NCBI RefSeq assembly: GCF_006715175.1
Contig: NZ_VFMQ01000001.1
Coordinates: 1,984,001-2,048,000 of the forward strand
DNA length: 64,000 bases
Direction of reading: 5' to 3'
Source of the DNA: Curtobacterium citreum
GTDB taxonomy: Bacteria; Actinomycetota; Actinomycetes; Actinomycetales; Microbacteriaceae
Shown here piece by piece: positions 2,499 through 7,874 of this stretch; position 1 is the first letter of the stretch; the number at the start of each line of letters is the position of its first letter. The notes beneath the pieces were generated by a model. It did not search any database. It was not told where the DNA came from and saw only the letters and a program-made list of their open reading frames with translations. The translations under genes and the position numbers were made by a program.

Positions 2499-2562
2499 CC
2501 GTTCAGCGTAACGCCCGCGCGCCGCAGCCGACCGGCAGGAGCGGACGGGCAGGATCGACGCC

Positions 2563-3048
2563 ATGACCGCAGGATCGCCGAGCACCCCAGCGACCCTCGC
2601 CCTCGAGCGGGCGGGGATCCCGTACACCCCGCACGTCTACGAGCACCACGAGACGGCGACGAACTTCGGCGAAGAAGCAGCGGCGGCGCTCGGGCTGCGC
2701 GAGGAGCAGGTCTTCAAGACCCTGGTGGTCTCGGTCGACGGCCAGCTCGCGGTCGCGGTCGTCCCGGTCGCGAACCGGCTCGACCTCAAGGCGATCGCCG
2801 CGGCCCTCGGCGGCAAGAAGGCCTCGCTGGCGCTGCCGGCCCTCGCCGAGAAGCGCACGGGGTACGTCGTCGGTGGGATCAGCCCGGTCGGCCAGAAGGC
2901 CCGGCTGCGGACGGTCGTCGACGAGTCGGCCCTGACGTACGCGAGCATCTTCGTCTCCGGCGGCCGCCGCGGGTTCGACATCGAGCTCGCGCCCACGGAC
3001 CTGATCACCGCCACGGACGCCCGGACCGCGGCGATCGCGCGGACCTGA
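2563..3048 (+). CDS. ybaK: Cys-tRNA(Pro)/Ala-tRNA deacylase, YbaK family
   Basis: A 161-residue single-domain protein of the YbaK/EbsC group, which hydrolyses Cys-tRNA(Pro) mischarged by prolyl-tRNA synthetase. Family hallmarks visible are the N-terminal TPATLALERAGIPYTPH block, the FKTLVV strand with the conserved lysine, the VPVANRLDLKAIAAALG segment, and the GGISPVGQK loop near the active site. Length matches the family. An AGGAGC-type ribosome binding site lies about 25 nt upstream, with GGCAGGATCG nearer the ATG. It is a stand-alone plus-strand gene divergent from the DUF6412-yidC pair. Confidence 0.93.
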   Translation: MTAGSPSTPATLALERAGIPYTPHVYEHHETATNFGEEAAAALGLREEQVFKTLVVSVDGQLAVAVVPVANRLDLKAIAAALGGKKASLALPALAEKRTGYVVGGISPVGQKARLRTVVDESALTYASIFVSGGRRGFDIELAPTDLITATDARTAAIART

Positions 3049-3078
3049 GTCGGGTCGCCGCAACTTTCTCCGACGAAC

Positions 3079-3105
3079 GGGAATGAGCCCGCTCCTCCTG
3101 CGTTG
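3079..3105 (+). promoter_or_regulatory. Candidate ECF (SigH/SigR-type) stress promoter
   Basis: GGGAAT is followed after 17 nt by GTT (GGAAT-N16-CGTT). This matches the promoter class recognised by the actinobacterial redox/heat sigma factors SigH and SigR. The predicted transcription start falls within the neighbouring HAIR palindrome. Confidence 0.6.
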
Positions 3106-3106
3106 C

Positions 3107-3127
3107 ATTGAGTCGAAGGCACTCAAG
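3107..3127 (+). promoter_or_regulatory. HAIR element (HspR operator)
   Basis: The sequence ATTGAGT-N7-ACTCAAG matches the HspR-associated inverted repeat CTTGAGT-N7-ACTCAAG at 13 of 14 arm positions. It sits between the candidate promoter and the ribosome binding site of the ClpC-like gene, where bound HspR would block transcription at normal temperature. Confidence 0.88.
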
Positions 3128-3143
3128 TTCCCAGGAGGTCCCG

Positions 3144-5726
<2,583 letters not shown>

Positions 5727-5733
5727 CCCTCGC

Positions 5734-5779
5734 CACACGACGGCCCGGTACCGCTTCGGTACCGGGCCGTCGTCGTGTG
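5734..5779 (+). terminator. Strong hairpin terminator of the clpC-like gene
   Basis: A 20-bp stem (CACACGACGGCCCGGTACCG and its complement, the latter with a 3-nt bulge) closed by a CTT loop starts 8 nt after the stop codon. No long T run follows, as is usual in very GC-rich genomes. Confidence 0.8.
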
Positions 5780-5824
5780 CGGAATGCGATCTGGAACTTC
5801 TTCCGGATTTCTTCGAGAAAAGGG

Positions 5825-5854
5825 TTGCGCTCGCATTCCCGGGATGGATAGTGT
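5825..5854 (+). promoter_or_regulatory. Candidate housekeeping promoter
   Basis: TTGCGC and TAGTGT are separated by 18 nt, preceded by an A/T-rich stretch (TTTCTTCGAGAAAAG) that is unusual in this genome. It would start a transcript near position 5861 with about 500 nt before the next recognisable gene. Confidence 0.5.
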
Positions 5855-5899
5855 TCACGAGCACCACCGGCTGAACGACGATGAAAGGGGGCCGACAAG

Positions 5900-5971
5900 A
5901 TGATGATCACCGCGATGAACCCGTTCCGTGGAGTCCGTGGGATCGGCGGCTCCCCGATCCGTCACCGCTGA
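5900..5971 (+). CDS. Possible 23-residue leader peptide or small protein
   Basis: An ATG-started frame of 23 codons follows AAAGGGGG by 9 nt and lies about 40 nt after a plausible promoter start. The peptide begins MMITAMNPFRGVRG and contains Arg, Gly and Pro with no membrane segment. It could be a leader peptide for the downstream small gene or a stand-alone small protein. I recognise no homologue; the call rests on the promoter-SD-ATG arrangement alone. Confidence 0.35.
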   Translation: MMITAMNPFRGVRGIGGSPIRHR

Positions 5972-6355
5972 CGCGGGACGTCCCCTCCAGCCCACCCGGC
6001 CGTGCCGAGGAGGCTGCGCTCAATCAGCTGCGCCCGAGGAGCTCGGCGCAACGCTGCTGATCCACGCGGCTGACGCGCTCGTCGGTTCCGCCCTGCGAGC
6101 CCGCCTTGCGGGCGCGCTCCGCGGGTCCTGTCCGGGGCGCGACCGCCCGTCGCAGATCCGGTCCTGACCGGACGCGCGCGGCGCGTCCCGTGGGCTGAGC
6201 GGACGACGTCCCCACGATCTTCCAGTGCCGCGTGCCGACATTCTCGGTCGCCGCGCGGAATGTCGTCGCGTGCATTTCCGGCGCGCTCCGGCACTGCATT
6301 CCTGCCCGCTCCTGCGGGTTGTTCCGTCCTGCCCTCCTGCCAGAAAGGCACCACC
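5972..6355 (+). other. Long untranslated stretch between small frame and next gene
   Basis: I find no convincing coding frame here. It holds several short GC hairpins, among them TCCGGTCCTGACCGGA near 6157-6172 and CCCGCTCCTGCGGG near 6303-6316. It may be a long 5' leader, a non-coding RNA, or sequence left by decayed genes. It contains no tRNA-like cloverleaf that I can see. Confidence 0.5.
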
Positions 6356-6589
6356 GTGTCGAACGACCTCGACGTCCGCCCTCCCAGTACCCGTGCGCCC
6401 CGGCGCCGGGTCTCCCTCGCCGACCGCATCGCCCTCCGGGTCGGCATGTCCCTGATCATCTGGAGCCGGCGCACCCACCACGTGCGGTACGCCGCCGACC
6501 ACGCCACCCGGCTGCGGCTCGACCGCGAGCGGCGCCAGCGCGAGGTGGACCTGCTCGTGCACGGCGCCGTCATGCGCATGTGGCGCTGA
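6356..6589 (+). CDS. Small basic conserved hypothetical protein
   Basis: A 77-residue, strongly basic protein. After a disordered start there is an amphipathic block LADRIALRVGMSLIIWSRR followed by an Arg/His-rich helical tail. Similar short proteins carrying an LADR-LxxG-LIxWSRR block occur in Microbacteriaceae, but I know of no assigned function; nucleic-acid or membrane-surface binding would fit the charge. The GTG start is supported by AGAAAGG 8 nt upstream. It may be on the long transcript from the promoter near 5.83 kb. Confidence 0.7.
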   Translation: MSNDLDVRPPSTRAPRRRVSLADRIALRVGMSLIIWSRRTHHVRYAADHATRLRLDRERRQREVDLLVHGAVMRMWR

Positions 6590-6714: not shown

Positions 6715-7734
6715 CTACCGCTTCCGGTTCGCCACGAGGGCGACCGCGTACGCCGGGAACCACGTCCCAGCCGCCGGTCCGCCGTTGCAGGTCCCGTCGC
6801 TGGCGCCGGGGGTCTTCACCCACAGCAGGGCGTCCAGCCGCGTGGTCCCGGCGGTGACCCGCGGCGACTGCCCGAGTCCGGCGCCCGTCGGGTTGCACCA
6901 CGTGCCGCGCCACCCGCGGCCGTTCCGTGACACGTCGATCACGTAGCGCGCGCCGCCGACCAGTGCGCTGAGACGGTCGGCGTAGGCGCGCTCCCCTTCG
7001 ACACCGTAGAAGTTCGCCACGTTCGTGTAGAAACCCCGTGCTCGGTCGATGCCCGCGCGCTGCAGCAGCGCCGCCTGCACGGCCGGCGGGTTCCAGTCCT
7101 CGTTCCCGCCGTCCAGGTAGGCGGGGACCCCGGCGTCGGCGAACGCACGGACCGCCGAGGCCACCAGTGCGGGACGGGTCGCGCTCTCGGACACGCACGA
7201 GGTCAGGTGGGACAGCGAGTCCGGTTCGACGAGGACGACGGCGCGGTGGCCGCGGAGCATCGTCGCGATCCGCTGGTTCCACACGGGGTACTCCGCTGCG
7301 CTGAGTCCGCCGGCCGAGTACCCACCGCAGTCCCGGTTCGGGATCGCGTAGGTCACGAACACCGGGGTCGTCCCGCTCTTCTCGGCCGCGGCGAGGTTGC
7401 GGGCCACGACGCGGTCCAGCTGGTCGCCGCGGAGCCAGTCGCCCAGCCAGGTGGCGATGGGCTGCGCGGCGATCGTCCGAGCGGCCGCCGCGTCGGCGGT
7501 CCTGCCCTGGGCGGCGAGTGCCGCGGCCGCGGCGGCGGGTTGGTTGTCCGGCTGCACGGTCAGTCCGCCGGCGAACACCGCACTCGCGGGTGCCGTCCTG
7601 ATGGTGCCCGCCGCGATCGGCGCGCGGGCCGTCCGTGTGGCAGCCGTCGCACTGCTCGGCGCGACCGACAGGCCGACGACCACGATCGCCGCCGTGAAGG
7701 CGGCGGTGGCCAGGGTGCTGACGCGGTGGTGCAC
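6715..7734 (-). CDS. Secreted glycoside hydrolase family 6 (cellulase-type)
   Basis: A 339-residue exported enzyme of GH6, the family of inverting endoglucanases and cellobiohydrolases that cleave beta-1,4-glucan. A Sec signal peptide covers about residues 1-31 (cleavage near SSATA-ATR). Family motifs are present: YAIPNRDCGG with the catalytic-region aspartate near residue 135, LVEPDSL with the proton-donor aspartate near residue 172, and WVKTPGASDG near the C-terminus. No carbohydrate-binding module or linker follows, so this is a compact single-domain enzyme. I chose the GTG start because GGGAGG lies 4 nt upstream. It is a lone gene, divergent from apt; no CebR-type palindrome is visible upstream. 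Confidence 0.9.
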   Translation of the reverse strand: MHHRVSTLATAAFTAAIVVVGLSVAPSSATAATRTARAPIAAGTIRTAPASAVFAGGLTVQPDNQPAAAAAALAAQGRTADAAAARTIAAQPIATWLGDWLRGDQLDRVVARNLAAAEKSGTTPVFVTYAIPNRDCGGYSAGGLSAAEYPVWNQRIATMLRGHRAVVLVEPDSLSHLTSCVSESATRPALVASAVRAFADAGVPAYLDGGNEDWNPPAVQAALLQRAGIDRARGFYTNVANFYGVEGERAYADRLSALVGGARYVIDVSRNGRGWRGTWCNPTGAGLGQSPRVTAGTTRLDALLWVKTPGASDGTCNGGPAAGTWFPAYAVALVANRKR

Positions 7735-7874
7735 GGTTCCTCCCGACCAGGAGGGCGCCCCGTGCACCCGGTCGACCGGTCCTCGTCCAATGGGAACCCC
7801 TCACCGGCCCGCGCGTCGAGCACCAGAACGAGGGGCAGGGACCGCCCTCGGCGTGGTCCGCCCACGCGGTCGAC

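Follow-up and report, generated by a model that had tools for sequence, protein, structure and literature searches.

The window analysed here, a stretch of 64,000 nucleotides from Curtobacterium citreum, carries a gene that is likely to encode a second, stress-reserved ClpC-type unfoldase, controlled jointly by SigH and HspR and feeding ClpP1P2. Heat signals (through HspR) and thiol-oxidation signals (through SigH) appear to converge on an unfolding motor that likely feeds ClpP, while the normal ClpC is left out. It is already in print that HspR and SigH together control clpB, that clpC has SigH sites and that HspR controls proteases; what appears to be new is a ClpP-loop Hsp100 paralogue, separate from the canonical clpC, as a fixed target shared by HspR and SigH. 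A literature search, chiefly of papers outside the subscription journals, found no paper tying HspR to ClpC in the Micrococcales and, within the same scope, no second ClpC-type gene described as such a shared target apart from the canonical clpC.

The features of the transcription unit and its surroundings are collected in Table 1. The predicted promoter, read directly from the letters of the forward strand, consists of GGGAAT (3079-3084), a spacer of 17 nucleotides and GTT (3102-3104), and is separated by a 3-nucleotide linker from the HAIR, in which the half-sites TTGAGT (3108-3113) and ACTCAA (3121-3126) enclose seven nucleotides and, with one outer letter on each side (ATTGAGT...ACTCAAG), extend over 3107-3127. 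All 12 letters agree with the HspR operator in print, TTGAGY-N7-ACTCAA (PMC2687793), and the promoter spacer is one nucleotide below the GGGAAT-N18-GTT implied by the SigR/SigH consensus of S. coelicolor and M. tuberculosis quoted in PMC3489674. An AGGAGG stands ahead of the TTG at 3144-3146. An earlier, sequence-only reading of this DNA had these elements right to the base, and its proposal that a ClpC-like gene whose product has a UVR motif and an LGF loop is preceded by a SigH-type promoter and an HspR operator is supported by the comparisons described here. The TTG is a credible start codon, since TTG (46 loci), ATG (21) or GTG (9) opens the matched stretch in 76 of the 80 orthologous loci, the match starting within the gene in the other four, and since the AGGAGG is kept at its distance in every locus counted (Table 1). 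The hairpin directly after the stop codon suggests a transcript of this one gene only; a terminator scan demanding a T run gave no match. A glycosyl hydrolase family 6 gene (window 6715-7767, reverse strand) lies downstream of the Clp gene.

Table 1. Predicted features at and around the ClpC-type gene (positions in the window)
Feature	Position	Strand	Basis or remark
ybaK-type neighbour (Cys-tRNA(Pro) deacylase), outside the unit	2563..3048	+	only beside the gene in the Curtobacterium group
SigH/SigR-type ECF promoter, predicted	3079..3104	+	GGAA[TC]-N16-18-GTT kept beside HAIR in 79/80 loci; SigH_actino gene in genome
HAIR operator for HspR, predicted, perfect	3108..3126	+	strong conservation of both half-sites across 46 loci outside Curtobacterium; hspR in genome
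Ribosome-binding site AGGAGG, 5 nt ahead of the start codon	3133..3138	+	letters; 33/33 loci counted (L028-L060)
ClpC paralogue with a predicted role in stress; 860 aa, read from TTG	3144..5726	+	N-terminal extension, Clp_N, AAA, UVR, AAA_2, D2-small, LGF ClpP-docking loop
Strong hairpin just 3' of the stop codon, lacking a U tract; the transcript may end here	5730..5782	+	-46.5 kcal/mol, z -8.0

The arrangement of promoter and operator was examined in 80 orthologous loci, 34 from the Curtobacterium group (33 so named and one, L038, labelled Microbacteriaceae bacterium) and 46 from others, including Leifsonia, Agreia, Mycetocola, Cryobacterium, Arthrobacter and Brevibacterium. GGAA[TC]-N16-18-GTT beside a HAIR of at least 10 of 12 letters (hereafter referred to as the loose composite) was found in 79 of them (34/34 and 45/46, respectively), and the palindrome is thus conserved in relatives, which the earlier reading had made a condition of its proposal. 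Among these 79 loci the HAIR score is 12/12 in 59, 11/12 in 18 and 10/12 in two, the gap between promoter and HAIR is three nucleotides in 61, four in nine and two in three, with an overlap of two in six, and the promoter spacer is 17 nucleotides in 70 and 18 in nine. In the 46 non-Curtobacterium loci the columns of the promoter and the operator are conserved and most letters between -35 and -10 have diverged. In the only miss, Paenarthrobacter sp. DKR-5 (L101), the HAIR is perfect and GGAATA is present, with no GTT in place. Elsewhere in the same 80 loci the loose composite does not occur in 716,593 bp searched on both strands, and it is also present in all of 26 further Microbacteriaceae loci (24 + 2; some species are in both sets).

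The ybaK neighbour adjoins the gene in 34/34 Curtobacterium-group loci and in 0/46 others within the flanks covered; the promoter therefore travels with the gene and not with its neighbourhood, and membership of the window gene in a ybaK operon is ruled out. Outside the family, none of the 19 class-wide members has a HAIR or an ECF site within 300 bp upstream, and among the relatives carried on plasmids in Streptomyces, Tsukamurella and Nonomuraea (identity 51.5-53.2%) the loci contain no HAIR of at least 10/12, and a search of 600 bp for an ECF site gave none. Thus, the circuit is not common to the whole clade.

The frequency of the motifs was also examined in the window, in the genome and in related genomes. 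The HAIR is the sole match at up to two mismatches in the window, shuffled versions of which gave a mean of 0.22 such matches and at least one match in 19 of 100 shuffles. Two perfect HAIRs are present in the 3.61-Mb genome, at the window gene and at hsp20, and three with one mismatch, at dnaK, at clpB and at 3,088,437. As the genome contains 20 copies of GGGAAT-N15-18-GTT and the spacer in the window is one nucleotide short, the promoter motif alone is weaker evidence than the HAIR. The ECF promoter and HAIR with a short gap occur together once in this genome, its own clpB having a second, overlapping form outside the gapped pattern. For a whole-genome survey, the strongest of the tests against chance, the gapped pattern GGAAT-N16-18-GTT-N2-5-TTGAGY-N7-ACTCAA, which excludes the overlapping form seen at clpB, was searched in 80 Microbacteriaceae genomes representing 79 genera. 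Of these, 25 contain the gene (protein match of at least 1000 bits); the pattern was found at 20 sites, one per genome in 20 genomes, all directly upstream of a window-gene orthologue when positions were compared with the protein matches. The other five gene-holding genomes carry variants outside the pattern, and no site was found in the 55 genomes without a protein match of at least 1000 bits, so that across the 80 genomes the gapped motif marked window-gene orthologues and nothing else. The strict composite (0 mismatches) matched only the window's own genome among 246 class genomes; the HAIRs of three other gene holders of the same family in that set (G094, G117 and G138) agree at 10 or 11 of 12 letters and hence fall outside a pattern without mismatches. 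A chance palindrome is ruled out by the window shuffles, the 79 of 80 orthologous loci and the 20 of 20 whole-genome placements, and the predicted combination of promoter and HAIR upstream of the window gene is, on these counts, not a product of chance.

The two AAA modules, Clp_N and UVR motif by which a ClpC unfoldase is recognised are all present among the Pfam matches of the window protein (Table 1; the last domain being ClpB_D2-small), and its best PDB matches are ClpC. Against the NCBIfam ClpB equivalog it scored 950.5 bits (cut-off 1232.1, a value not reached, at 1161, by the genome's own ClpB either, which has no N domain) and against ClpK and ClpG 798.5 and 785.9 bits, respectively (cut-off 1900); neither the window protein nor the canonical ClpC reaches the NCBIfam cut-offs for ClpB, ClpA, ClpK and ClpG. 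A protein search of the genome identified two other large Clp ATPases, a canonical ClpC of 839 residues and a ClpB of 722 residues (L008 571-2739), the latter lacking the N domain, with an NCBIfam match that begins at profile position 148. Over residues 119-849 the window protein and the canonical ClpC are 51% identical. A tree of 50 proteins groups 25 members, including the window's, in a clade (support 0.96) that adjoins 19 members found in other parts of the class, the five canonical ClpC proteins standing apart. A pattern for the N-terminal stretch around a ten-residue sequence is matched in 71 of the 81 close members, 16 of the 21 class-wide members and none of the five canonical ClpC proteins. 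That the window gene is the canonical clpC is ruled out by the separate clade and by the canonical clpC elsewhere in the genome; on its domains and phylogeny, the gene is a second ClpC-type paralogue and not the cell's main ClpC. Within the class, 23 of 148 genomes hold the gene (E below 1e-235). One Microbacteriaceae genome encodes, besides the paralogue, ClpC and ClpB, a further Clp ATPase (G261:C1:991113-993581; 845 bits, 55% identity), which lies under the 1000-bit line and so outside the count of 25.

The ClpP-docking loop reads LGF in 67 of the 81 close members, MGF in eight, IGF in five and TGF in one, giving [LMI]GF in 80 of 81, and VGF in all five canonical ClpC proteins; no such loop is present in the one ClpB examined, the genome's own. 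The single TGF belongs to L101, also the sole locus without the promoter GTT. Five of the 21 class-wide members (L162-L166) lack the loop, an observation that suggests a non-proteolytic branch. The loop of the window protein is, as read from its sequence, a mark of the capacity to engage ClpP and not of its use. Because [LMI]GF is retained so widely and two ClpP genes are present in the genome, it is plausible that stress would raise degradation through the window gene.

The canonical clpC and clpB genes were compared with the paralogue for the same sites. Upstream of the canonical clpC, no HAIR was found in any of 20 genomes in which the paralogue is present too, or in any of six examined separately, and a SigH-like site was found in one of the 20, at a distance of 373 nucleotides. 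Within 300 bp upstream, a ClgR-like site is present at 15 of 21 canonical clpC genes (13 of these between -75 and -110) and at none of the 80 paralogue genes, a contrast that was chosen after looking and that uses a second pattern with its first base relaxed; scores for the motif in the form published for bifidobacterial ClgR did not distinguish clpC from the paralogue. The clpC site in this genome also fits, on the opposite strand, the ClgR motif GTTCGC-N5-GCG quoted in PMC9775585. The ordinary clpC is probably under ClgR.

The genome's own clpB carries a HAIR of 11/12 overlapped by GGAAT-N18-GTT. In clpB stretches sampled from 20 Microbacteriaceae genomes, 16 with and four without the paralogue (L188-L207), a HAIR of at least 10/12 is present in 20/20 and the composite in 9/20, always in the overlapping form. 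Fourteen of the 20 stretches show the clpB start, and in these it is short, like that of the 722-residue ClpB. Since both sites occur at clpB and at the paralogue and not at clpC, clpB and the paralogue are predicted to share control in this genome, with clpC outside it. The sequence-only reading had placed the double control on a ClpC-like gene rather than on ClpB, and this part of it fails: the check it had proposed for another ClpB-encoding gene revealed the 722-residue ClpB-type gene under the same two predicted sites, and a transfer of control from clpB to clpC is thereby ruled out. Its term 'ClpC-like' stands in so far as the protein is a ClpC-type unfoldase, but the gene is a paralogue, and a separate canonical clpC without a HAIR exists.

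The control apparently shared with clpB in this genome would also suit a stress disaggregase like ClpB, ClpG or ClpK, working without ClpP. The loop missing from some class-wide members and altered to TGF in L101 is consistent with such a protein, as are the top NCBIfam scores, to ClpB and ClpK, which nevertheless lie under every cut-off, as they do for the canonical ClpC. The near-invariant [LMI]GF loop of the close members, the UVR motif and the best PDB matches to ClpC argue for a protein that works with ClpP, and a disaggregase is regarded as unlikely, though deserving of some weight.

Both regulators that the earlier reading had proposed to look for are encoded in the genome. hspR, whose absence would have told against the earlier reading, is present (NF047375, 132.4 bits against an NCBIfam cut-off of 105), behind genes that by eye read as dnaK, grpE and dnaJ, and a sigma factor of the SigH_actino family scores 300.2 bits (TIGR02947; cut-off 251.55), with GGGAAT-N18-GTT about 300 nucleotides ahead of sigH itself. 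Beside sigH lies a gene for a small, anti-sigma-like protein with HMESCEDC and a zf-HC2 match of 23.9 bits (cut-off 22.2), which we take to be what is expected of an RsrA-type anti-sigma factor. Two further observations concern the heat-shock genes. Just upstream of the first HAIR at dnaK (L003) there is by eye a second, degenerate one, TTGCGT-N7-ACTCAG. The hsp20 gene (L010 3092-3577, reverse strand; G000:C1:258058-258115) is preceded by a perfect HAIR and a CIRCE of 17/18, the only CIRCE in the genome at up to two mismatches, predicting joint control by HspR and HrcA.

The assignment of the promoter to SigH was weighed against the other occurrences of the motif. Seven of 17 other GGGAAT-N15-18-GTT sites examined have redox-looking genes behind them, picked by eye and not blind; Pfam, run on these seven genes, gave domains of FMN reductase, DSBA, FMN oxidoreductase (two genes), flavin reductase, glutaredoxin and F420 oxidoreductase. 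No gene was picked as redox-like behind the remaining ten, so that the motif alone is an unreliable mark of SigH. This, together with the 20 genomic occurrences of the motif, the spacer of 17 instead of 18 and an overlapping TAAAGT in the clpB genes of relatives that by eye could be a housekeeping -10, would fit a gene under HspR control alone, started by a housekeeping sigma factor, with GGGAAT-GTT as a chance or decayed match. That GGAA[TC]-N16-18-GTT is held at a nearly fixed distance from the HAIR in 79 of 80 loci while the spacer has largely diverged, and that no sigma-70-type promoter match was found in 2500-6400 of the window, tell against this explanation and render it improbable. With 12 Pfam matches to sigma region 2 in the genome, the promoter could also be read by an ECF sigma factor other than SigH. 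The possibility that the palindrome acts as a leader RNA hairpin rather than as a DNA operator is very remote and was rejected: a 6-bp stem with a 7-nucleotide loop could form, but the half-sites vary without compensation (TTGAGC with ACTCAA, a C-A mismatch, in 10 of 79 loci), the letters fit the published DNA operator one for one and recur at dnaK, clpB and hsp20, and a transcript starting inside the palindrome, as expected, would hold only half of it.

Under joint control by SigH and HspR, transcription would be initiated at GGGAAT-N17-GTT by RNA polymerase carrying SigH, a SigR-type sigma factor presumably held by the zinc anti-sigma factor. The start at a SigR-type promoter is expected a few bases past the GTT, so that the HAIR would span it and bound HspR would block the polymerase. 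HspR, probably with DnaK, would occupy the HAIR until heat or misfolded protein pulls both DnaK and HspR off, and full output would require the sigma factor to be present and the repressor to be gone, in the manner of an AND gate. The protein would then pass substrates to ClpP1P2 via the conserved LGF loop; clpB would be driven by the same pair of signals and the ordinary clpC would remain outside the circuit. A broader model, offered tentatively and with slightly less than even confidence, is that labour is divided between two ClpC motors in the Micrococcales. One would serve housekeeping under ClgR; the other, for stress, would have been drawn a single time into a joint SigH-HspR AND gate, and only heat or thiol damage heavy enough to titrate DnaK would then raise proteolysis together with disaggregation by ClpB. 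ClpC1 is described in abstracts as an antibiotic target in mycobacteria, and a stress-induced second ClpC in other actinobacteria would bear on the action of ClpC1-targeting compounds there.

Among known systems, the canonical ClpC of the same genome resembles the window protein in its two AAA modules and its ClpP loop, and differs from it in clade, in sequence over much of its length, in the lack of a HAIR and in its ClgR-like site. In C. glutamicum, a study by Engels in 2004 reportedly, to go by its title, links ClgR, HspR and SigH to clpC and clpP1P2. PMC2687793 mentions clpP1/P2 in connection with the HspR/SigH-Clp protease link of that species. HspR and SigH have thus already been tied to Clp protease genes, as proposed here; the C. 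glutamicum network, however, includes ClgR, whereas none of the 80 paralogue genes examined had a ClgR-like site upstream. The HspR regulon of Streptomyces comprises dnaK, clpB and lon, the last repressed via the same operator (PMC2687793), and HspR control of the proteases lon and ftsH is in print (PMC9775585); as described in the available portions of these sources, the Streptomyces regulon holds no ClpC-type gene, in which it differs from the circuit predicted here. A second ClpC is known from Streptomyces, ClpC2 (S. hawaiiensis CEB94_33910), which works with ClpP1P2 in vitro (PMC9765437); the likeness to the window protein is one of description.

HspR with DnaK as co-repressor is released from DNA on heat in other actinobacteria (PMC8223512). 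In M. tuberculosis, the HspR site at clpB overlaps the SigH promoter, both heat and oxidative stress raise the expression of SigH, SigH was missed at clpB by ChIP-seq, which the authors attribute to the repressor, and clpC1 has a SigH-bound site (PMC4803200). The likeness is that the same two regulators would meet at a single, overlapping site in front of an Hsp100 gene, and the same logic, applied to the window gene, predicts an output that needs both signals. The difference lies in the target, which is clpB in M. tuberculosis and here would be, in addition to clpB, a ClpC-type paralogue with a ClpP loop.
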